A stretch of 27,484 bases of DNA from assembly GCA_009602725.1 (NCBI GenBank), contig WELB01000036.1:1-27484 (forward strand). The letters run 5' to 3'. Of this stretch, positions 3,736-27,484 are shown piece after piece. The position numbers and the translations under genes are program-made. The notes under the pieces are model-generated. The model was not told the origin of the DNA and ran no database searches. It saw nothing but the letters and a program-made list of their open reading frames with translations. The stretch comes from Spirogloea muscicola. Lineage: Eukaryota > Streptophyta > Zygnematophyceae > Spirogloeales > Spirogloeaceae. Within the stretch, counting starts at the first letter, position 1, and each line of letters opens with the position of its first letter.

Positions 3736-6700
3736 ATGGCGCTCGCCGGCGATTATGACGGCGGGAAGCCGCCGCCGCCGCCGCCGCCGCCGTCGCCGTC
3801 GCCGTCGTCCTCGTCGTCGGCATCGGCGGGCGCCGCCGACTTTGCGGCGCTACTGGAGGCGGAGCTCCTGGACGATGGCGACGGCGAAGACGGCGGCGGC
3901 TGCGGCGGTGGCGGCGGCGGCGGCGGCGAGCCCTCCACGAGCTACGGTGGAGCCGAGGCCGGCAGCTCCCGGGGCCCGAATAGGGCGAGGGTGGCGGCCG
4001 AGGACGCCGGCCCTGCAGCGCAGCGTGAGCCCGCCCCTCCCTTGCCCAGGCCTCCGAAGTACAGCTCCGAGTCGAACCCTCGACCTCAACCGCCGAACCC
4101 TGACTCCAAGCCTAAGCGTCAGACCTTGACCTTAACACCTTCGCGCGCGTCCCTTTGGGGGAGCACCTCGCAGCCCCAGGCCAGCCGGCCCTCGTTATTT
4201 TCAGACTGCACAGCACGTACAGCCCGCCAAGTTGAGCTGCATGAAGATACGAGAAGCCTTTATTTGTCTGCTGGTGCCTCCTTGAGCAAAGCCCAAAACT
4301 CTGAAGCTTGGAGCTAGGAGCTCGTGGGAAGTGCCATTGGCAGGCACGAGCGGTGCCAGTGCGGGCGCCGCGGCGGAGGCGTGCCCACCGCACCCGGGCT
4401 TCATATGGGGTGTCTGCATCCGCTGCGGCGAGCTGCGGCAAGAAGCAGACGCCGGGCCTCCTGGCGTGGCGCTCACGTACATCCACGCGGTACGCCTCAT
4501 CCTGCCAGTCGAGCCTATGCGCTAGTGTCTCAGTGACCTTCAAATGACAGTCAGCCTGTATGTGGGGCAAAAGCTGCCCCACATTCGTTGGCATTTGGGC
4601 CAACCTTGGACGAGCTTTGCGTTTATACTCAAGGTTTAGTATGACATATTCAGTCACAATCTATCCTCATGCTCGCTCTCATTCTGATCTTCAAGTTTCT
4701 CAAACAAGCAGACCGGAAGGTCAAGCTCCAACCGAAGCACTAGCCTCTACACTTGCCTTGAGAGACAATCCTTGCATGTTTCTCAGGGATTGGAGGTGAG
4801 CGAGGAGGAGGCTGGGAGGCTGCGGAACACAGACCTTGAGAGGCTCCTGGCAGAGCGGCGGCTCTACCTCGTGCTAGACCTCGACCACACGCTCCTGAAT
4901 TCGTCCCGTGTCTGTGACATCCATGCCGACGACGTTGCTTACCTGGAGCGGCTGTACCCTCCCGAGCCATCTACTTCGTCACACGGTGGACAGCAGCTCA
5001 ACAGCCACTCGTCATGCATGCAGTCCATGCGCAAAGGGCTTGCCAAGCAGATCATACGGTTCAGCACAAAGAGATCACTGGCTGTAGCCTTCTGCTTTGG
5101 AGCTTAGTTTTACTATAGTATGAGTGCTAAGTGGTAAGCTTAACATTGAACTATTGACCAGCAGTCTCCATGAGAAAAATTTCTCTGCAGCTTGCGCGCT
5201 TCGCTGAGGTGGCCGTGCTGAGCATCCGCCCATTCACGCTTCTCTGTCTCCAGTCTCGGTCGAGCTGCATCGGCTGCCGCATCTCAATCTGTGGACCAAA
5301 CTCCGGCCAGGCGTTTTCCATTTCCTGACCGAGGCCAGCAAGCTCTTCCAGCTCTATGTATACACGATGGGCGAGCGTATCTATGCCTCCACCATGGCTC
5401 GGCTGCTGGACCCGTCTGGGAGGATCTTCGGTGATCGCGTCATCTCACAGAGCGACTCCACGAGGAAGAGCATCAAAGACCTGGATATCGTCCTCGGCGC
5501 CGAGTCGGCAGTCCTCATCCTTGACGACACTGAACATGTCCGTGTCTCTTGGCCTTGCCGTGTTCAGTGCAGTGCTTGCATGTGTCTAGACATGCATTAG
5601 CAAGCAGATGTTGTGGGTACCCTCGTGTCAGTGATCTGATCTAATTGGTGAGACGTCATTTATCATATTGTCTAGTATCAAATTGGTTCTCTGCTGCAGG
5701 TATGCACACTGCGTAAATTGCTACTGAGCTGGCTGTCTGCCGTGTTTTTGATGAAGCAGGTCTGGCCGAGACATCGGTCCAACCTCGTTAGCGTGGAGCG
5801 CTATCATTTCTTTCGATCGTCCCGGGTACAATTTGGCCTGTCCGGCGCCTCCCTCGTGGAGCAGCACCAGGACGAGAGCGCGTCCTCGGGCATTTTTGTC
5901 TCAATTTTGGACCTGCTCAAGAGGCTACACAAGTCCTTCTTCCACCACCCTGCACAGGTTTGTGAGATACTTCATTGATTGGTCCTGCAAAGCAGGAGGG
6001 CAGTGATGGACGGTGCAATTGCTAAACATAGTGAGAATCAGGCGTTGCAAGCTCGTTTGGAGCCTACATATTTCCCTCCGAAAAACCCCAAGCCGCCCCT
6101 TGCCACGGCTTGTTTTAAGTCAAGTGCTGTCTGACATGCGTGTGCCCTTGGTCTTGACCCAGTGCTCTTGATGTGGAATAAGGTCCATCTTAAGGAGGAC
6201 CGAGCTGCAATCTAATCTGATGCCTGTCCGAGCTGTGCCGTGTAGGAGGGGGGTTTGACTACTCTTGCTTCAGGTATGACGCGCGACATTCGTGAGGTTT
6301 GTTGCTGCACTGTGGCCTAGCTGTCATGCCAGCGCCAAGGCCTGCATCTACCTCTTGGAGCCTGGGCTGCTATTCTGCAGATGTTGCTTATGAAATCATC
6401 ACAAACACCCCAAGATAAAAGCTGGTCCTGTTCATGGCGGCAGGTGCTCAGAAATGAGCGTCGGAAAATCTTGTCCGGCTGCCACGTCGTCTTCAGCAGG
6501 GGCTTCCCCTCTGACACACGGGACTCTGCAGCACACCCATCGTGGCAACTGGCCGAGGAGCTGGGAGCTGTGTGCTCCCAGCAGGTGGATGCGCGTACCT
6601 CCCATGTCATCGCCTTGGACAAAGGGACCGAGAAGGTGCGACACTAAGCCCTGCACGCCATGTCCATGGACCTACAATCATTGGACCTTACAATCCTATA

Positions 6701-8799: not shown

Positions 8800-8978
8800 T
8801 TACTCTGATCTGCTGTTGCTCACACGTGGATACTGAGCAGCCATCTGCATCTCCCTCTGCACCATCTTGCACTTTGTAGTGTAGTCCTTTTTCAGCACCT
8901 CTTTCGTTGGCTTTGAACATTGTCCATTCTTTTTGGGTTGGCTTTGCCAGCCCCTCTTCTCAATGGGCGAGCACCTTC
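8800..8978 (+). repeat. Long inverted repeat, left copy (partner 21090-21268)
   Basis: The segment from GTTACTCTGATCTGCTGTTG through the CCATTCTTTTTG box to the CAATGGGCGAGC box reads, with few differences, as the reverse complement of 21090-21268. The two copies therefore lie in opposite orientation about 12.1 kb apart. They belong to the dispersed family that is also found at 3040-3110. Confidence 0.85.
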
Positions 8979-9381: not shown

Positions 9382-12300
9382 ATGGCTGCCGCATACTTCC
9401 CAACTATGGTATGGCAGTGTCGCGGCTAGTCACAGTGACGGCCACTGCAACAGGGTGCAGAGGCACTGGACTTGCACTGCTGGAGCCAGTCTGGTGTGCA
9501 ACCAGCAGCGGCAGCGGCGGCCGCAGCGTGGCCTCAAGAGGGGCACATCATCGAGGGCCGCCCGCTCTCGACGGAGTTCGGTACGCCCCTCAGTGGCAGG
9601 AGGAGCCAGTCACGGCCAAGCGCAGCCCACATGGAGTCTCCCGGAGCACATAGCGCCGCTGCACCGAGCGCCAGGATCGCGATTGTGGGCGACGTGGTGA
9701 GCGCAGCTTGGCGGTGCTGGCCAGCCAGAGCTGGGACCATCTACGCCGCATAGTCCACCTTGGCAGTCAGAGTCAACAAATGGGCTCTGCTGGGCTGCGC
9801 AGCACGACATGTGGGACGCGGAGGCCGACGGTCGGGCTCTCGCTACCTTGGACGTGAGCAGCGCCACACCTAATCACGTCCGTCAGCATGCCGTGTCTGA
9901 GCACAACGTCTGAAGCATAATGACCTCAGGGATCCACCACTCTTGTAGATTTACCAGCTTTACCAGCTAAGGGAACTCTACAAAGACACCATTACCTGCC
10001 TGGTCATCAGCATCTCGAACGTGGCTAGCTGTCTTGCCTGTTGTCCAGTACCTGTACTGAATGCCTGTCGAAATTGGGTTCATCTGATTCAATGTATTTT
10101 ACAAGTGGAAGTCCTTTGGAAGTCTGCTAGCCTGCTGCGAAATGTACTGGGGTGACATGCTTTCTTGTCGTGCCTCGCAAAGCACCGCCGCAGGTGGATC
10201 TGGTCCTCTTTGTAGGTGCGTAGATGCTACACCATGTGTACTTGATCTTACTGTAGGTCCTGAGCTTCTGAAGTTGAAGTCACTAATACATGCCTCTTGC
10301 AAGTACTAGTCACTAGCTCACCAGTGAGCTCTTGAAAGGGCCTCCACCTCTTACCTCCTTTGCAATCGCAAGCTCTTGAGGGCACACTGTCTGCATTTGC
10401 AAACGCCCGGGCCAATGTCAAGCCTCTGCACCTGCCGAGTCTGCATTGCCAAGGCCCTCTACACCGTCTGCACCCCTGCCGGCCTGACACAGGTGATTTT
10501 GGTGACGAGAACGTTGAGCTGGTGAGACAGGTGAGCGAGCTGCCGATGCCCAAGGCCGTAGTGTTGGGCAACCACGACTGCTGGTGGACGAGTTCAACGC
10601 CCTGCAGGCCAGTTCGGAAGTCCTTTCCAAGGCTTACATGCCCTGTGAGTTCCTCTCTGCAAGCCCAAAGAAGTTGCTGTACACTGACTCCTTGAAGTAT
10701 TTCTGGCCCATGCTTGCCTGCAGGACGGGAGGCCAGGATGACGTGCAGCGGCAGCTACATCTGTGACCAGTTGCCTTGACTTCCTTGTGGGTTCCTGGCT
10801 GCTGCAATTACTGCCATTTCAGCAGATGATCTTTCTTTTAGGTGCTCGTCAATGTTTGCTGGACAACAACTGATCCTTGCCCACATTGCCCTGGATATAG
10901 TGTTTGCTTTCAGCAGTGCTCACACAAATTGTTGAGATGGTGTCCATCAGTCTTATGCTCCAAGCTCCTCGTGCTGGCAGACTTGGGGAGTCGCATGTGG
11001 GCTTCAGACGACTCGACTTCCCGCACCTCAAGCTGAGTTTGGTGGGAGGGAGACCCTTTTCATATGGTGGGAGCACCTGGAGTGAAGGCAACAGCGCATT
11101 CTATGGCAGCAGGTCCATTTGCAATCCTTCGCGGCTCAATGTAAGCCACTCTTGAAGCCATTGGTTTACAATCTCGACTAACGGATCCCTTTCCACTCTG
11201 CACCTGGTGGCACGGACCTCCAAAGCCGCTGTAAATAGGTGAATACGACCTCGAAGTTGTTCTCCAGTAAGGCTGACAGTGCCTTGAAGCAGGTTTGGAG
11301 TTCGGAGCTTTGAGGACAGCGCTCAGCTTATCACACAATCTGCAAAAGCTGCTCCAGAGGACCACTTGCTCATCCTCCTGGCACACAACGGGCCACTAGG
11401 TCTTGCAATTTTTACAGATATTCAACGGAAGATATGGCCTCTTTACTGTTGTCAAATAGTTGTCTAGCAGACATGATGATTAGAGTCTTGAAAAGATGTC
11501 AAGCCAGCAGAACAAACACTTAGTTTCGTGCAACACCAAGATTCAGTGAAGGCAATCACTCAGCCGTCTGTTCAGTCCTCTTTTCCAACCCAATGCCAGG
11601 ACTCGGTGAGGAACCAAGGTCCATCTGTGGAAGGGATTGGGGATCTTGGCGAGCACCGCCTGGAGGCGACCATGGCGACCCTGGTCAGCATCGTTCTTCA
11701 TGCATCTTAACAATACCCAAAAGTGCACCACCCTGAATCTATTTTGCATGCTTGCAATGCTGAACGGGAGTGGATAGTATCGCGGCAGCTCAGCTTGACT
11801 GAGATATCTGAAGCAGCCACTCACACTGGCAAAGCTGGAAGCTGTGCTGATCTAGTATATATGGCTCGCCACCAGCTAAGATGCTCAACACATTTGCCTG
11901 CAGATCATAGCAAGGGCAATGGCACTACTCACGCTTCTGTTCGCTGCTGATGCTGACCAGATTGAGTTCCCTGATTGTTGCTGTTATGCAGACCTGAAAA
12001 CGGCGATTGATCAGATTGTGGGCCCCTCCTTGAGGAGGAATGTGCCCCTCGTGGTCTTTGGCCACATGCACAAGGGCTTAGCACAAAAGCAAGGCTTACG
12101 GGAGATGATTGTGATGGACAGCGCCAGGAGGATCATGTATCTGAATGCCGCAGTCGTTCCCAGGCTCCGAGATGGGCCGCTAGAGTGCACTGCCGATTAC
12201 GGACTCTCTTCACACGCACACGAAGGCAGAGGGCTGGGCTTGGATCCGTCCATGGCTGCCGCCAAGGAGAGGCAATTCACGCTGGTGGAGCTGGCCCAAG

Positions 12301-12422
12301 AAGGTGTAATAAGAGTGGAAGAGGTTTGGGTCCACCCGGAGACACTGCAGGTGTCTAAGGACCTCAAGTACAGCATAGGGCAGGTGCAATCTGAGGGAGT
12401 CCCACAACAAGCTGAGACGTAG
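9382..12422 (+). CDS. Calcineurin-like metallophosphoesterase of the cyanobacterial/plant type
   Basis: A two-metal phosphoesterase; the substrate is unknown. I recall the family as TIGR04168, found in cyanobacteria and plants. My exon model is 9382-9408, 9490-9696, 9803-9853, 10194-10215, 10493-10644, 10737-10762, 10981-11112, 11293-11399, 11600-11683 and 11992-12422, in phase throughout, 412 aa. Metal-binding motifs appear in order: IAIVGDV|HD (split by an intron), FVGDFG, GNHD (128-131), GGRPFS, AHNGPLGLG, ICGRDW, GGDHGDPD and FGHMH (292-295), then LNAAVVPR. The N-terminal 60-70 residues are Ala-rich with few acidic residues and could be a plastid transit peptide (inference). The first exon (MAAAYFPTM) is tentative; an in-frame ATG at 9631 just before the domain is another possible start. 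The exon at 10737 could instead begin at 10724. Two exons are only 22 and 26 nt. Confidence 0.88.
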
Positions 12423-13299: not shown

Positions 13300-14219
13300 T
13301 AGCTCCCCGGGGGAATGCCGCAGTGCCAAGTGGCGGGGGCCGAAGGCTGCCACGTGTTAGACACTTAGGCGGTAAGCGCTCCGCGGGTGGCGCCTGACAC
13401 GGGCCCTCATTGGCTTGTCAAGCTGCCGGGTCCTCTGCGGGAGCTTAGCCTTGTAGCTTTAGCGCCTCTCGGCCCCTTTTAGTTGCGGTGCACCAGCCAG
13501 CGGCGTAGCCAGCAGGTCGACTAGGTCCCGCAGGGAGAGATCAGACATGTCAGAAAAAGCTAGTCGGACATCGACCTGTAGAGGATGGCTGTCGGGCGGT
13601 CCGGCCGTGCCGCACGTGGGCTACAGCCCCCGACGATAAGTGGAGGGGGGGGGGGAAGCGTCCGGCAAAGGTGGGGGTAAAGGCCCTGGCCCCCGTAATT
13701 ATCCACCCCTCTTCATTCCTCCACATCATACGGTTTACTGGGATTGTGCGCTGATATATTCAGTCACGAAAGTGCACACGCGCCTGGCCCCCGGCCCGGA
13801 CCTTTCCCACCAGCACCCGCCCCCGGGCCCTCACGAGATGGGTGACCGACCGGGGGGGGGGAGATTCGACGACCGATTTGCGAGGCCTCCTCTGGGCTCA
13901 TTTGCCGCGGGGCAATGGTGGGGCGTGACGTGGCCCACAAAATGCCTCCCCAACCCCCCCTCGCCCGCCGCGGCGAGCCCTAGCGCCTTTCCCCCGCGCG
14001 CCCGCCGCCGCCATCACCGCCGCCATCACCGCCGCCGCCGCCGNCGCCGCGGCGCTGAGCTCGCCGGCGCGCGCCTCTCGCGCCGCCTCTCCTCTTGGCT
14101 GCTGCGACGAGCGGATGTAGCCCCGCCCTTGGCACGGCTGCCGCTGCGCCGAGCCCTTGGTTGTTGGAGGCGCCAGGCTCGGCGCTCTCGTGGCCGCCAC
14201 TGCCGCTGCCCTACTTTGC
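13300..14219 (+). promoter_or_regulatory. GC-rich upstream region of the type-B response regulator
   Basis: The region holds G runs at 13645-13655 (11 G) and 13852-13861 (10 G) and, from 13990, CCG/CAC triplet runs with an undetermined base at 14044. An open frame from 13640 crosses the regulator's first exon in another frame; its composition (poly-Arg, poly-Pro) argues against coding. An in-frame TAG at 14118-14120 precedes the regulator's start. Promoter or 5' UTR function is inferred from position only. Confidence 0.35.
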
Positions 14220-17200
14220 ATGGCAAGCGTCACCGAGTACCAGAATGGCTACAACAGCAGTTACTTCGGCGGCAGCGGCAGCAGGTCGTCGGGTGTGATA
14301 CCAGCTGTTGGGCCAGACAGGGCGGGGAAGGCTGTTGAGATGGCGACTCTCAAGGTGGAGCCTGTGGAGCAATTACCATTCCCGGCAGGGATGCGTGTCC
14401 TCGTTGTGGACGACGATCCCTCGTGCCTTATCATACTGGAGAAGATGCTGCGCAAGTGCAACTATCACGGTCAGCATGACCAGCCACGCACTGGTGGCCT
14501 CGCTGTGATTTCACTTGCGATTTCCCTTGCTGACACCCAGAAGCCACAGTCGCAGTCAGCCATAGTGGCCTCCGTCTTGAACTGCATCGGTCACTTGTCT
14601 GGATTAGCAACCTGGATGGCAGAATGACCCCTATTTGTACTAGTTAGACCTGGGCTGACCCATGCGCTGTCCTGGCTACAGTAGGTAGTCTCTACTTGGA
14701 AGATGACCCCACACACAAGTGCGTGTGAATGTGATCTGCTCTCTTCCACGGGGCTTAAGATGGTCAGACGCTAATTGAGGCTGTGACTGTGAGGGTCAGA
14801 TAGCAGATAGAGCTTCAGGTCTGCGTGACTTGCACTCTTCTTGAGGCCTGGGCCCTGACAGGCCTATGCTTTTTATTGCAGTGACATCCTGCACGAGGGC
14901 AACTACTGCACTTCAGAAATTGAGGGAGAATAAGGATGCTTATGACCTAGTTATCAGTGATGTCATCATGCCGGACATGGATGGCTTCAAGCTTCTTGAG
15001 TTAGTTGGTTTGGAGATGGATCTCCCTGTGATCAGTGAGTTAGTTTCCTGTGTCTTGTGCATTTTTAGATGATTCATATATGTGAAGCAGAGCACGCACA
15101 TGCTTATCTGCATGTAGGTGTGCATGATGACAAGTAGACCAACATGTCGAAGCCAGTAGTGCTTTCTATGTGACATCACACTGCTGTCTTGTTTGCTGTC
15201 TGTTTGGGCAGTGATGTCTGCCAATGGTGAGACCTCTGCCGTCATGAAGGGAGTCACACATGGTGCATGTGATTACCTCCTCAAGCCAGTGCGCATAGAA
15301 GAGCTGCGTAATATCTGGCAGCATGTCCTTCGAAAGAAGAAACAGGACAATAAGGTGAGAATGTATCTAGGATACAGGCTTTCATGCATGCTGCTGTCTA
15401 TGAGCTCGTAGGCATCAACAGGTCACTGCAAGTTGCTGTGTACCAAAGGGAATGGCTATGGCTAGGGTGTTACTCACAATTACCTTGAGTTGGCATGTAA
15501 ATCGAAGTGAGGGCGTGGTGGGTTGCCTGTATTCATGACAGGGAGACGATGCAGCTGGCAGTATTGAAGATCCTGGAAGGAGAAGGGATGAAGAAGGAGA
15601 CTTCACTTCATCTGCTGATCAAGACACCGTGTCGGCGAGCAAGCATAGCTTAAATAAGAAGCGCAAGGAAGGAATCCAGGTCACAGGATCGGCAAAGGTG
15701 TGCGGACCTGCTTCAGATAGCTTAAAGTTCGAACTGCTGCGAGTTTGGACTTGACATAAAGCACCCCTTGTGGATGCATGCTCGTCCATGTGCTGCAGGA
15801 GCTTTTAGCAACCAAAATCTCAGCTGGCCAATCGACTTCATGTGAACAGCTCAAATGGGCATGCTGCCTGTGATTTTGATGAGGCGGTCGAAGGGAATGG
15901 CTTGCTCTAAGCATGCACTTCGAGGTGCAAGTTACTCTTTTTGAAGCAGTGCGCTGCTCTTTGACAGGAGGAGGGGGAGCATACTGGGTTCGATGAAGAT
16001 GACAACGACCCTGGAGCTCTGAAGAAAGCGCGAGTTGTCTGGTCTGTGGAGCTTCATCAGCAGTTTGTGAATGCTGTGAACCAGCTAGGCATTGACAGTA
16101 AGCCTCCTTGCTTGTTAGGTCAGGCGACTTTTTCACATGCTCAAAGTCTTGGATCTTTTAGATGCTCATTTGATCTCATGACATGAGGCTTATCTATGGT
16201 GGATATAGTTGTCATGGTGGGCAACTCGAGGAACCTAGCTGGAGCAGGTCTCATTGCATCAGCTAGCAGGACTTGACATGAATGAATACAATCAACAAAA
16301 TGCTCCACTTCATAGGATGTATCGGTCTTCTTGCTAGCAGCACATGAAGAACAACTTGTCTTCCTTGCCAGAGGCTGTGCCCAAAAAGGTGCTGGAGATG
16401 ATGAACGTGTCTGGTCTTACGCGCGAGAACGTTGCCAGCCACTTACAGGTATGTTGTTCATTTGACAACCAGTCTACTTACAGCAAAGCCTGGCTGTGAG
16501 AGACGCCTTTCCTTGAAGCACTGGAAGTGGGATGCAGAGCACGTTGAGGTTGCAATTGAGGTCTATTTTTCACTTGAGCTAAGGTTGTTTGACTCATGAG
16601 TGCCCCTTATCATTTCTGTGCTTCCTGTATGATGATGCAGAAGTATCGCCTGTACTTGAAGCGGCTCAGTGGGGTAGCCCCTCAACTGCAGAGCAACAAC
16701 TCCGGTGGATCCGCAGCCCCTTCGCAGAGCGGCACTCCTGATAGCACTATGGGAAGGCCTGCCACAAGTTCTGCAACAAACACCTCACCCTCATCTTCAC
16801 CAGCCTATGAATTGCCGCAGGAGCATCAAGCCCCTGTCAGCGGTGGGCAGCAACTTCGGGCACAAGCCATGGCAACCCTGCAGGCAAGTTACACCGGCAG
16901 GTCAAGTCTATCCAAGGGGTTGATGGGTCTGCATATCTTGGTACTTGATACTAGGAGAATAACGGGGGTCAATCGCATGTAGTGTAGCCATCACTACGGC
17001 CCTTGGAAGAGCCAAGGGCCGTAGTGATGTCTACACCGGCTCTTCCTCGTGGTGTCTGTTGAATATCCAGATTAAGGTTTTCTAATCTTGTCTATCTCAG
17101 AATTCCAGCACACAGCTCATCCTGCCGCAGCAGGCCCTGTGTAAAAGGTGGTTCCTGGTACTGTAATTGGTGATAGCAGATATTCCTTCCACATAAGCCT

Positions 17201-17334
17201 CTCAAAGCTCCCTGCATTCTCTTTGGCAGTCCACTGGAATAAGTGTCAGGAGCGGAGCAGGAGGTGGGACTCTCACCCTCGACCAGGCACTGTTGATGCA
17301 TGCCCAGCTCCAGCAAAGACAGGAGCAGCAAGAT

Positions 17335-17365
<31 letters not shown>

Positions 17366-17393
17366 GGCGGCAGCAAGAGCAGCAGAGGCAGCA

Positions 17394-17442
<49 letters not shown>

Positions 17443-19177
17443 CAGCAAAGGCAGCAGCAGCGGCAACATGAGCAGCAACAGAGGCAGCAGCAGCAGCAGC
17501 AGCAGCAGAGGCACCAGGAGCAACAACAGCTCCAATACCATCACCAGCTTCAGGTGGCGGCTGCCCAGGCGGGTCCCGGGGTACCCATGGTTGGAAACCA
17601 GGTGGGGAGCTTACACGGCTTGCAAACAAGCTCTGAACTCGAGAGAAGAGCACGTCAGCATCTGGCCACTGTCAGCCAGTTGGGAGCAGGTGGCGCGTCA
17701 TATGATGATAGTGACATTGCTGGCTACACGGCATTGCAGCAGTTCAGTGCTGAGCATGCAAACGAAGTTGTTGGACAAGGAGGTGGGTTGCGGGGCCGGA
17801 TGGGTGGCACTCCCGTCTTGCCAGGCTTGGAAGCCACAGGCGGCAGTGCCACACTGAACCAGAACATACTGCTGCTGCAGTTACTGCACCAGCAACAGCT
17901 AGCCCAGTCAGGTGCGGCTGGAACGGCTCAGAGTCTGGGGATCCAACCAGGCGTTTTGCAGGGCTCGATGGGCAAGATGGTTGGTCAGACAAGGGGCAGT
18001 CCAAGTGCACGGATGGGAGGAGCGGCAAGTGGTAGTGGCACTTATCAGGGCATCACTCAGGCGCAGCTTGCCGAGGTGTTGGCGCGACCTGGTGGCCTGG
18101 AGAGCTTGCAGGCAGCCGCGCTCCAGAGAAGCCAACAGCAGGCACCTGCTGCGGACGTCCATAGTTTGGGCAGCATGGGCCTACATCAGCAGTCAGGCAC
18201 CGGCTCTCATACTGGCCTGAGCCCCTACGGACCAGACGATGGCCACTTGCAGTTGCCAAGGAGCATGCCGACTGGCTACGCAGGCAACTCCAGCAGCTTG
18301 TCTCCGGACATGGATGTCAGACAGTCGTGGCACCAGCAAGCAGTTGTGGGCCTCGCTGACCACATGAATGAGGAGCTAGCTATCTCGTCGCTGCAGGTCT
18401 GGATAAACACCTCATTCAGTCAGTAGCACTTTGTGACTTTTATCTAAAATACATTGTGGGTGGACATAAGAGACCAGATTCTGAAATCTTCATGCCATCT
18501 TCTTATGTCCAACGGGACTAGCCTAGTGCTTACGCATTGTTGCATTTTCCATTGGCTTCATGACCAGGAGAACAATGCAAGATATCAGACAGTGCAAGCA
18601 CCGCCACTCAGCTATCCACAAGATTCTCTACCATCCAGCAGGCTTGCTGCAGCAGGACCGGTCCCGAGCATAGACAGCAGTGCAGAAAGGTCCTCTACCT
18701 TGCCTGAGGGCCAAGCTGTCATGGATCATCATGTTGTTCTTGACCAAGCCCCCAAGCTTGAGAGCCAGCACAGCCTGGGCCTTGCTGAGACAGCGTCAGA
18801 AGATATCATCAGCATGTTCTTCCTGCAGGTTGTGCCCGAAACTGCTGCTCTACATGCCAGCCGCCATAGGCCCTGCTGGGTCTACACATTGACTTGTCTT
18901 CTTTAGAGTTGCCCATATGATGGTTAGTCTTGGTCTTAACAACTTGTAAGAGTAGATAAATGAATCAGGGTCCAGGAATTTCCTAAATTGTCCTACTGCA
19001 AGATTGTATTTACTTTTCCATGTGTGCTTAGTTGTCTTGGAGATTTGTTGTTTTTGTGGTCTAAAAGTACTAAACAGGCAATATACTGCTGTGCACCTTG
19101 GACAGGACTCTGAAACAGCCGCGCTCATTGATGGGGATCTGAACACCGACTTTGACAGCGTCATGTCACTCCAGTGA
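14220..19177 (+). CDS. Type-B (ARR-B) response regulator, receiver plus GARP DNA-binding domain
   Basis: A nuclear transcription factor that ends a histidine-kinase phosphorelay (cytokinin type in land plants). My exon model is 14220-14469, 14882-15034, 15212-15354, 15542-15697, 15968-16097, 16372-16448, 16641-16883, 17230-18396, 18568-18828 and 19106-19177, all in phase, 883 aa. The receiver domain (about 58-170) has every key residue: acidic pocket DDD (64-66), phospho-acceptor Asp110 in [10 protein letters not shown], Ser136 in MSANGE and Lys158 in LLKPVR. An acidic linker with KKRK follows, then the GARP/Myb-like domain (about 253-313) with [29 protein letters not shown] and [11 protein letters not shown]. 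Exon 8 encodes a Gln-rich region (about 406-485; longest pure run 14 Gln, all CAG) and then a Gln/Gly/Ser-rich activation-like region. Intron 7 starts with GC rather than GT. The start is the first ATG after an in-frame stop. Confidence 0.93.
16982..17036. repeat. Near-perfect 25-bp inverted repeat (hairpin) inside intron 7
   Basis: The arms 16989-17006 (CATCACTACGGCCCTTGG) and 17012-17029 are exact reverse complements around the 5-nt loop AAGAG. After one mismatch (16988/17030) six more pairs follow (GTGTAG/CTACAC), giving 24 of 25 pairs. It sits in the intron 16884-17229 of the response regulator. In RNA it would form a strong stem. Confidence 0.9.
17306..17545 (+). repeat. CAG triplet tract coding polyglutamine
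   Basis: Interrupted CAG/CAA/CGG/GAG triplets within exon 8 of the response regulator, including 14 uninterrupted CAG codons at about 17398-17439. The reading frame stays open throughout. Length variation among strains would be expected for such a tract. Confidence 0.85.
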
Positions 19178-19690: not shown

Positions 19691-20800
19691 GGGATTCGTT
19701 CAACAGCGTGGACTGAGACGTCGTCGCCCAGGAGCTGAGGGAGGCCTTCCCAAGCCTCCTGCCCTTCTTCCGGCTTGCCTATAGTCAGCCGAGCGACTTG
19801 CTGTGGAGGACAGAGAATGGTGTTGTGGAGATCCTCCAGTCACCCACGGGCACACAGCAAGGGGATCCGCTGGCGGCTTTCTTCTACGCGCTGGCTCACA
19901 ATCGCGCGCTGCAGGCAAGGGCCACAGCACACCCTGGCGTCCTCGTGCCCACGTACGGCGACAACGACCTTTGTGGGCACGCCTGGCTCTTGACAGCCTC
20001 CCACTCAGGGGCGGCTGCGTGGCTGACAGCGCTCCCCATGTACGCTGTACTGACCATGCTGGACGCTGTCTTCCGGACGGCTGTCCACCAGGTCCTGGGC
20101 CTCCACCCCTCCTGCTTCGTTTGTGTGGTGCAGTGCGAGTGCGGAGCACGCAACGCCGACGCTGCGGAGTGGCTGCGCACATGCTTCACTGTGCACACGG
20201 TGGAGAGCGGACCGGCACGTACGACCTTCTCTGGAGATGCCATATATGGCATCTTCTTCAGGCCGGCTACACCGTGGCAATGGAGCACTCAAGCATCATG
20301 CCCCGTCAAGCTGGGGCCGATGGCCGTCTCCATGCCCGTCTCGCCGATCTCAGTGCCCACGCACTGGGCGGGGTCCCTGGATCATTGCAGACGTGTCACC
20401 ACCGACTGCTTTGAATCAAGGACCTCCCAACGAGGGGCGGAGGAGGCAGGCTATGCAGTCCGCCAAGCGGCGGGCGCCAAGGAGAGGAAGTACGCAGACC
20501 ACCCCGCTGGCGACGAGTTTGTCGCGCTTGCAGTCGACGTCCACGGGGCATTTCTAATATAGTGGCTTGACCTACGCCAGCGTCCTGTGCAGCGTGCTGT
20601 GTTCCGCTGCCAAGGACGACAGAGCGAGCAGCCCGGCTTCAATGCCATTGGGTCGCTTGCTTGAATCTACAGGATGCGCCTTGCAGTCTTCCTGCAGCGG
20701 TCGTTAGCCGTCCACTTGCGTGCAGGTCACGCCTTGGCTGCTGCCTCCTGGTTCCGTCAGGGCGACGCTGGCCGCCCTCTATTTACTCTGATGAGAACTT
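19690..20800 (+). pseudogene. 5'-truncated, disrupted non-LTR-type reverse transcriptase
   Basis: Matches to reverse-transcriptase motifs start abruptly: SFNSVD at about 19696-19713, an in-frame TGA at 19714-19716, then FPSLLPFFRLAYSQPSDLLW, TGTQQGDPLAAFFYALA (the QGDPL motif) and, where the YADD catalytic motif is expected, TYGDND. After about 20250 the recognisable protein moves between frames (DAIYGIF, then QAGYTVAMEHSSIMP and GADGRLHARLADL, then EEAGYAVRQAAGAKERKYAD and FVALAVDVHGAF), and a further block (RMRLAVFLQRSLAVHLRAG) ends near 20740. The C-terminal pattern (ADL, a downstream D, K..KY) resembles a restriction-like endonuclease of R2-type elements; that is inference. The truncated 5' end, the stop and the frame changes mark a dead copy. 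Confidence 0.8.
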
Positions 20801-21049: not shown

Positions 21050-21268
21050 TCGTCCAGTTGGCCAGCCCAGAAAAGAGGGAGAAGAAAGAAGAGCTCGCCC
21101 ATAGAGAAGAGGGGCTGGCAAAGCCAACTCAAAAAGAATGGACAATGTCCAAAGCCAAAGAAAAAGTGCCGGAAAAGGACTACACTACAAAGCACGAGAC
21201 GGTGCGGAGGGAGATGTAGATGGATGCTCAGTATCCACGTGTGAGCAACAACAGCAGATCAGAGTAAC
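21050..21268 (-). repeat. Long inverted repeat, right copy (partner 8800-8978)
   Basis: Reverse complement of the 8.8-kb copy, from the GCTCGCCCAT box at about 21093 to GATCAGAGTAACTC at about 21257-21270. The first part (GCTCGCCCATAGAGAAGAGG, GGCTGGCA.AAGCCA) also matches 3043-3085 in the same orientation, which shows at least three copies of this module in the window. Confidence 0.85.
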
Positions 21269-22722: not shown

Positions 22723-24471
22723 ATGCTGGCCAGTCGCCCGCCGCCGCCGCCGTCGCCGGCGGCGGCGNTGCAGGTCCTCAGCGCCGCCGCCGCCGCTGCC
22801 GCCGCCGCCGCCGCGCGCGGCGCTTCTCGCCGTGGCGTTGACGGCGCCGCCATGGGGCTGCAGCCGGGTCTGGCCGTGCGGTATGTCGCCGACGCGGCGC
22901 ACTTCCCCTACGGCGGCAAGCCGCCCGCCGCCGTCGCGGCACGCGCCATGGCGCTCGGCCGCGACCTCGGTGAGCCCGTTGAGCCCCCGGCTCGCCGCTT
23001 GCCGTGGCTCTGGCGGAGGTGCACACTATACCACCTTGGTGGTGGGCACCCATTGTGGATCTTCCTGCCACTGTGGCCCAAGCCCGTCTGGCGCCTCGCA
23101 GTGGCGGGCGGGTGCTGCCTGCTGGTCGTGGCGTGCAACACTGCGTCGTCGGCGGCTCTGGACGACCTCCGCCGCCAGTGAGCTCCGCCTGCTCGTGGGC
23201 TTTCGTGCAATGAGCGCACTGAGCTTGCTGCGAGCCGACGCCGCCGCTGCCGACGCCGCCGACGCCGCTGCTGTCCAGCTTGCCGGTCGCGGTCGTCGGC
23301 GTGGAGCCGGCGCTGAAGCCCGGTGTTGCACAGAGCAAGTCGGGGGTGAGCACACGCAAGCACCAATTGCAATGGTGGACCGGTCGTGCTGGGGAGCGTC
23401 ACTAGGGGCTCTGCCGCGCGGATGGCCATGCCGGTTCTGCTTTCACATTGGGGGCGACCGCAAGGTTCAAGTGGGCATGAGAGGCGAGTTCGGTCAGCCA
23501 AGGCCGGCGTGAGCCCACAGGGCGTCATTGGCGCCCGCAGCTGGTGGCGGTCCTGGCGACGGAGCAGACCGTGTCAGGGGGCCGACTGGCTGCGCTGTGC
23601 CGGTTGCACGCGCACGGCACGCGCGTGGAGTTGGTCCCCATGCCTGGCCTGGCGGACTTCGTGGAGGCAGGAGAGGTGGGCAGCACGGTGTCTACAGTGG
23701 CCACCATCTCTTTTGCCCTGTGGAGGGGTGCATCTGCATTGTCTCCAGATCACCGCAGCAGCAGAGCGAGCTGTATCGGTGCAGTCGTGCTCTTTTAGTA
23801 GCACTCACTCTGGCAGATGTGAGATGTTTGCCAGCTGAACCCCATTGCTGCAAGTGTTCCCCGCGGCGCAGGTGACAGGTGATCGCGTGGCGGCCTTGAT
23901 TGGCAGCGCGCTCGGGCCGCTTATACGCGACGGTTGCGACACCATTGTCCTCGGCTGCACACACTACAGCTTTCTCAAAGTGAGAGCATGCTGACGAGTT
24001 ACTTCAAGCACCATCAGCACTGTTGAAGCTCCTTGGGCTGTCTTTGTGGTTGTGGGTCTGGACTAAGTGCAATGCTTTGCGACCTTACCAGGTCAAGGAA
24101 ACAGCTGCATGTAACCTCATCTCCTGGCAGGGTAGTATGAGAAGAGGTCGCCTTTGCATGAGCTTGCGCAGGCCTGCCTGTCAGAGGTGCTTCCTGCACA
24201 CGTTGAGGTGGTGGATGCGGCCCCTGCGGTGGCACGCCGGGTGCTGTGGGTCCTTGCGCGAGATGGCTACTCGCCAAACTGCACAAGTCCTCAACACCGA
24301 AGGCCTTGCCTCAACGTCTCAACGACTGGGGACCCGCACCAACTAGTACGTGTCGTGCAGCAGCTCCACAGCGCCACCGGCATGCTACCACTGCATATGC
24401 ATGTGCAGCAGCACGTGCATTCTGTCCAAAGCAGGACGCCAAGTATTCTGTTGGTGGCTTCTTCTGTATAA
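22723..24471 (+). CDS. murI: Glutamate racemase (MurI type)
   Basis: Interconverts L- and D-glutamate, the D-Glu source for peptidoglycan. My exon model is 22723-22969, 23102-23177, 23279-23345, 23541-23675, 23872-23979 and 24136-24471, all in phase, 322 aa. MurI motifs in order: RYVADAAHFPYG (about 53-64), VVACNTASSAALDDL with catalytic Cys94, VAVVGVEPALKPGVAQSKSG, VAVLATEQTVSGGRL, MPGLADFVEAGE, DTIVLGCTHYSFLK with catalytic Cys204, AHVEVVDAAPAVARRV and TTGDP. The two Cys are 110 residues apart, as in Bacillus RacE (C74/C185, from memory 111). The DSGVGG motif expected near the N-terminus is absent; a poly-Ala tract occupies that place. An acceptor-like TGCAG at 22769-22773 would let an upstream exon supply it. 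Start 22723 is therefore tentative. In green algae such genes point to plastid peptidoglycan synthesis. Confidence 0.88.
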
Positions 24472-25368
24472 TTTACATTGACTAATCTTGGCCACACGAG
24501 GCCTGACCTTGACTTCGATTGTCTGCTGCAACTCAACCGGCCTCCCTTGAGTTTTGTGCTCCGTCGTGGCGCACTGTGCCAACTTAACTTTGCCCTTCAT
24601 GACCTCAAGGCCTGCAGAGGCTTCTGCTCAGCATTTGCTTCTGGTGCTTCACTCAGCACTACTGCGCAAGGCCTGGCATCAGGTACAACGAATAATTGAT
24701 GCCAGGTGCCTACACACATGGGCAATTGAGTTTGCGTTCGTTAGAAGGACCGAACAATTCACGAACTTCCAAGTGTACCGAGCACTCATGCTTCACGTGT
24801 TCCAGGGGCTGCACTCCAAGTCTCTTAGATGCACTTATTTAGTCATTTCAAATCTAGCATATGTGCAAAGCAAGCCCATATCATCAAAGTGCAACTTGCA
24901 TTGCAGCTGGGCAGATCGATCCCCCAGCCTCACTCCAAAGTCATCTTCTCCACGAGACTAAGTGCTGCAACTGTGTAATCTCAGCAACAGAGTATCCACA
25001 TTGTGGCGCTTTTACTTGTCAGCCAGCGTACTCCCTTGACCTTATTGGCTACATCAGGGCTGATTGACAGTGTTATGTGAAAGCAGGGAGAGAGACTTGG
25101 ATCACTGTTTCTGCAACAAAGCACCCAACTTACAAGCTTGACATATCTTCCGAATCATACTGGCATGCATCTGCAGACACGCAGCAACTGCACACCAACT
25201 CTAGATCTCCACTGTCCAAGCACAGGCGAGCAGGACAACATGGAACTCTCTGCAGGCAGAAGGATGGTGGCTACAGAAGCAGGCCAAAAAAATGGGGTGA
25301 GGGGTGGCCAGTAATCGCCAGGAAGTGTTGTGGCTCTGATTTTGGCGATTTGGTGACAACTACCCTAT
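24472..25368. other. Spacer between convergent genes
   Basis: Contains the presumed 3' untranslated regions of the racemase (plus strand) and the cyclophilin (minus strand). Only short open frames without motifs; no RNA gene or repeat recognised. Confidence 0.45.
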
Positions 25369-27432
<2,064 letters not shown>

Positions 27433-27484
27433 GCAGCGCCGCCGGCCGAGCCCGGCGGCGGCCGTGAGCCGGGCGCCGGCGGCG

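Follow-up and report, generated by a model that had tools for sequence, protein, structure and literature searches.

The nuclear genome of Spirogloea muscicola encodes a glutamate racemase of the MurI type. In the window, i.e., the whole stretch of 27,484 nucleotides analysed here, a plus-strand gene at positions 22723-24471 bears both catalytic cysteine motifs of this family, is split into six exons by five introns and lies among genes of the green lineage. Taken as a whole, we read it with moderate confidence as a spliced nuclear gene of bacterial origin, whose product would provide D-glutamate, most likely for plastid peptidoglycan. MurI enzymes are cofactor-independent and rely on a pair of cysteines for inversion at the alpha carbon of glutamate.

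Structure of the racemase gene

The six exons yield a product of 310 amino acids. According to the gene model and the alignments, exon 1 (22723-22969) encodes a low-complexity N-terminus followed by RYVADAAHFPYGGK and ends in phase 1; it is incomplete or uncertain, owing to an ambiguous base (N) at 22768. Exon 2 (23102-23177) carries the first catalytic cysteine motif, ACNTAS, with the cysteine codon at 23134-23136, and exon 3 (23279-23345) encodes LPVAVVGVEPALKPGVAQSKSG, in which the EPAxKP block is recognized. Exon 4 (23541-23675) covers the aligned part running from LVAVLATEQTV to ADFVEAGE, whereas the second catalytic cysteine motif, GCTHY, is found in exon 5 (23872-23979), with the cysteine codon at 23956-23958 and the histidine codon at 23962-23964. 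Exon 6 (24172-24471) encodes the C-terminal part, including VVDAAPAVARRV and TTGDPHQL, and includes the stop codon.

All five introns are of the GT-AG type: intron 1 (22970-23101, 132 nt) is in phase 1, intron 2 (23178-23278, 101 nt) in phase 2, and introns 3 (23346-23540, 195 nt), 4 (23676-23871, 196 nt) and 5 (23980-24171, 192 nt) in phase 0. Read-through of introns 2 to 5 meets in-frame stops. Intron 1 has a length divisible by three and leaves the frame open, so it is the alignment that decides for its removal; its retention would add 44 residues that are seen in none of the 17 aligned bacterial rows. The first catalytic cysteine is separated from the second by 110 residues, a distance that ranges from 97 to 127 in the bacterial MurI of the 20 rows showing both motifs (four of them also at 110), the 21st row, L014, being cut off. 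An earlier note made from the DNA letters had claimed both MurI cysteines at bacterial spacing and five phase-consistent introns, and the two claims hold.

Bacterial relatives and the proposed use of D-glutamate

The nearest relatives found are the MurI of three IMG/VR contigs (L025-L027), with 40-42% identity over about 200 residues. Their EPGLKP, GVLAT and GLAD blocks resemble EPALKP, AVLAT and GLAD of S. muscicola, but they are uninterrupted genes of prokaryotic form, and the N-terminal motif DSGVGG is present in L025 and L026 (L027 begins after it). One of two Acinetobacter MurI is also among the best relatives in the local panel (142 bits). No relative was retrieved from the viral contigs by a single-protein scan, and an alignment scan of them gave six loci, including L025-L027. 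The latter lie at contig ends, each beside a tRNA-His, and probably represent host DNA flanking a prophage; a virus-borne copy was discarded on this reading. A scan of genome contigs returned two spirochaete loci only.

Trees were built with 19 of 67 matching plasmid records, these two spirochaete loci and five of the six IMG/VR loci, the latter entering only from the analyses of 26 and 21 rows on. They omit L029 (a fragment), L005 (a weak second match) and L001 and L002 (apparently the same genes as L003 and L004); L014, nearly identical to L006, was left out of the later trees, and the reduced trees also omit the long branches L012, L017, L023, L028 and L030. The L014 record (NZ_CP039131.1), a plasmid of "Pseudomonas sp. 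A2", terminates in a MurI that is almost identical to the Klebsiella protein (branches of 0 and 0.085) and may be mislabelled or contaminated.

In the 21-row tree, the S. muscicola protein clusters with the three IMG/VR proteins L025-L027 as well as with one Acinetobacter MurI (89/87), and a split supported at 100/99 separates this mainly proteobacterial side from the Bacillus-type MurI. The grouping with L025-L027 persists when the Acinetobacter row is removed (82/83), and placement of the S. muscicola protein on the Bacillus side by constraint stands unrejected (p-AU 0.095). In the full 26-row tree, the protein joins Acinetobacter A (89/81) inside a group of 14 rows (87/85), a join that may be false, as the tree program warns that two long branches meet there; the S. 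muscicola row indeed has a long branch and an odd composition. In these trees, none of the starred sets comprising at most half of the rows contains the S. muscicola protein. The label "proteobacterial" is loose, since two spirochaetes fall on that side and Neisseria and Legionella on the Bacillus side.

No cyanobacterial MurI was found among the plasmid records listed (60 of 67 and 60 of 79) or among the phage records listed (20 of 21 and 20 of 22). Of the comparison with cyanobacterial and other bacterial MurI proposed in the earlier note, the bacterial part has thus been carried out, on rows without cyanobacteria, and in these trees the protein appears to lean, not firmly, to the mainly proteobacterial group over the Bacillus type. 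Because of this lean, it would be premature to take the origin as endosymbiotic, i.e., cyanobacterial. In its PGARAA block, cyanobacterial MurI is similar to the Bacillus type, a likeness that would speak against descent from the plastid ancestor and is given here as a lead only.

The gene would have been acquired from bacteria, a MurI of proteobacterial type being favoured, not proven, as the source, and early enough for five introns to be gained. The predicted enzyme would interconvert L- and D-glutamate, one cysteine taking the alpha proton and the other returning one to the opposite face. Its D-glutamate would most likely feed the MurD step of the plastid peptidoglycan pathway, MurD being the enzyme that adds D-glutamate in peptidoglycan synthesis. 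From the published reports of plastid peptidoglycan and of algal MurI, we consider this supply the likeliest role of the racemase, albeit a putative one.

Another possibility, which we regard as distinctly less probable, is that the racemase is active and its D-glutamate is not destined for plastid peptidoglycan, the pathway having been lost and the product serving D-amino-acid use or some other purpose. The lean to a mainly proteobacterial group is in favour of such a history, whereas the maintenance of the gene throughout the gain of five introns and the usual service of MurI, which is otherwise to supply D-glutamate for the cell wall, argue against it. The literature also speaks on both sides. 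In the available text of one study, 17 transfers are counted in one racemase family, taken here to be the Asp/Glu family: the acceptors are fungi in 15 cases, oomycetes in one and Physcomitrella patens in one, the latter a species suspected by the authors, in another family, of contaminating sequences (PMC5169069). The only transfer tested there, the aspartate-glutamate racemase of Candida glabrata, had no obvious role (PMC5169069). Since there are reports, in other eukaryotes and mostly in fungi, of transferred racemases that have no known role, a lone racemase with another use is a live rival. Furthermore, the peptidoglycan layer is reported to be lost in most Chlorophyta (PMC10784329). On the contrary, of the two algae for which a MurI is named, Klebsormidium is described as possessing the peptidoglycan genes in full (PMC8227023), and a peptidoglycan layer is present in Cyanophora (PMC6704402).

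The missing motif, the enzyme family and the genomic setting

The S. muscicola protein lacks DSGxGG, the N-terminal MurI motif with the catalytic aspartate and serine, which is present in all 21 bacterial rows. Among the 20 columns invariant in 20 bacterial MurI (L014 omitted), 14 are kept, one is changed (P to A) and five are absent, the latter being exactly the D, S, G, G and G of this motif. Its expected site, as judged from the motif search, the context and these columns, coincides with the N at 22768, which is probably an assembly join. Directly 3' of this base, TGCAGGTCCTC reads (L)QVL in the frame used and resembles the GGLxVL that follows DSGxGG in bacteria. An upstream exon carrying the motif inside the window was considered and rejected, as no [DN][ST]GxG[GA] was detected in the six frames of the whole window, a search that would overlook a motif interrupted by an intron.

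The simplest reading is that the assembly join has lost DSGxGG, the gap hiding an intact motif of what would be an active enzyme, and the alternative is a true loss. Should the N represent just one base left unread, the motif is truly missing from the protein, which may be inactive: it would then be a relic derived from MurI, with a genuine low-complexity N-terminus. The empty six-frame search is consistent with such a relic, as are the additional alanine-rich residues between QVLSA and RYVADAAHFPYG, which have no counterpart there in the bacterial rows, and an alternative alignment that sets RRGVDG opposite DSGVGG. We nevertheless consider a relic unlikely, given that the 15 remaining invariant columns are retained with a single exception, that the exons are open with canonical splice sites, and that QVLSA immediately after the N fits the bacterial sequence. 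Moreover, this N is embedded in G+C-rich triplet repeats, and so is the window's second N (14044), the only further one.

The assembled protein matches the NCBIfam profile TIGR00067 (glut_race) from profile position 20 with an E-value of 5e-41 and 140.7 bits (hmmscan), i.e., about 6 bits below the whole-protein cut-off of 146.65 bits. This shortfall is explicable by the missing N-terminus, since two known full-length MurI truncated near the corresponding position fell from 178.9 to 143.8 bits and from 361.8 to 323.4 bits, a cost of 35 and 38 bits. The TIGR00067 match does not by itself prove a MurI, because this profile matched 10 of 14 control genomes, the archaeon Haloferax volcanii among them, and exceeded the cut-off in eight. 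The spliced protein also matches the Pfam family Asp_Glu_race (PF01177) with an E-value of 3e-18 (hmmscan), and glutamate racemases make up 23 of the 24 distinct PDB sequences matched with phmmer, the remaining one covering residues 22-59 only, the alanine-rich stretch included. A chance resemblance is ruled out by these three results.

Membership of PF01177 is shared across the superfamily and would in itself accommodate a different Asp/Glu racemase, for example an aspartate racemase. This is very improbable, as the aspartate-type profile TIGR00035 and CuyB reach E-values of only 0.006 and 7.5e-08 vs. 5e-41 for TIGR00067; profile scores and PDB matches alike place the protein nearer to glutamate than to aspartate racemases, and on the former an aspartate racemase was excluded. 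The protein shares CNTAS and GCTHY at bacterial spacing with bacterial MurI/RacE (TIGR00067; e.g., RacE of B. subtilis, L016). Unlike them, it is encoded by a nuclear gene with five introns, bears an alanine-rich stretch near the N-terminus, is devoid of DSGxGG in the assembled sequence and has a longer C-terminal tail.

The neighbouring genes indicate that the contig is nuclear DNA of the green lineage. Downstream and convergent with the racemase gene, a multi-exon cyclophilin gene on the minus strand (about 25369-26550) has the photosynthetic NDH subunit L5 of the chloroplast as best PDB match (E-value 5e-76), and both genes share the N-free stretch 22769-27484. On the upstream side, a response-regulator receiver and a Myb-like domain, both present in pieces (Pfam E-values 2e-25 and 2e-9), belong to a type-B response regulator gene on the plus strand (receiver and Myb-like GARP, ARR1-like; 14331-16760, perhaps to about 18426), the Myb-like part having the response regulator ARR1 as best PDB match (E-value 9e-30). 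This region contains a polyglutamine-coding stretch at about 17305-17560, and the N at 14044 precedes the receiver pieces. Further upstream on the plus strand are an FCP1-like phosphatase domain with a BRCT domain after it (5208-6647) and pieces of a TIGR04168-family gene (10336-12422) that individually score under the family cut-off.

A bacterial contaminant or a chimeric contig is hardly credible: the closest proteins found come from bacteria or from contigs of bacterial type, and an N separates the racemase gene from the upstream genes, but five introns of the spliceosomal kind, the linkage to the cyclophilin gene by sequence free of any N and a best identity of 40-42% to any MurI found exclude it in practice. 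The introns and the green-lineage neighbours thus confirm that the gene is nuclear and no contamination, as had been claimed.

Besides these genes, the window contains a dispersed repeat in two copies of opposite orientation (8810-8972 and 21093-21254, 87-89% alike), possibly a remnant of a transposable element. An open frame of 281 codons on the plus strand (19717-20562) presents, by eye, reverse-transcriptase-like motifs (GTQQGDPL, YGDN) and gave no match in Pfam or NCBIfam at the thresholds applied. A 33-nt motif around GGTTATTGAG occurs four times, at irregular intervals, between 20790 and 22323. No Mur domain was found among 10 of the window's open reading frames scanned with Pfam, and no Rfam match was obtained in the window at the gathering threshold.

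The D-glutamate step in the green lineage

That some members of the green lineage have plastid peptidoglycan, as also put forward in the earlier note, is supported by publications and not by the window: it is reported in several green lineages, with ten core or key enzymes of the pathway counted (PMC10784329, PMC4815162, PMC7455551). The words MurI and racemase are absent from the main texts of two of these papers, as far as these are available (PMC4815162, PMC7455551). Most green plants are described as having no obvious MurI, with the exceptions of Cyanophora paradoxa and Klebsormidium nitens, and a D-alanine aminotransferase or a bifunctional DapF is proposed as the source of D-glutamate instead (PMC9434261, available text). 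Two putative MurI are reported in Cyanophora, whose peptidoglycan genes are of mixed bacterial origins (PMC6704402). The MurI of K. nitens (GAQ85716.1) and of C. paradoxa are likewise glutamate racemase homologues of plastid-bearing algae of the Archaeplastida, likened here to the S. muscicola gene by their published description only (PMC9434261, PMC6704402). K. nitens provides the only green-algal MurI named in the available texts of the literature searched, a corpus with few subscription papers that is no proof of rarity. The present MurI of the green lineage is uncommon and not the first of its kind.

A more specific scenario, which we put forward only tentatively and consider rather doubtful, is that of an alga whose plastid D-glutamate comes from a laterally acquired racemase, of a proteobacterium-like donor, replacing a lost cyanobacterial MurI. 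If true, lateral acquisition of a racemase would be the answer of one green lineage to the missing D-glutamate step, which mosses and most green plants would fill by some other route. A further MurI of the green lineage, possibly of non-cyanobacterial ancestry, renders this step accessible to testing and suggests more than one solution to it; D-glutamate, a constituent of bacterial cell walls, still seems to be needed by the chloroplasts of some plants.
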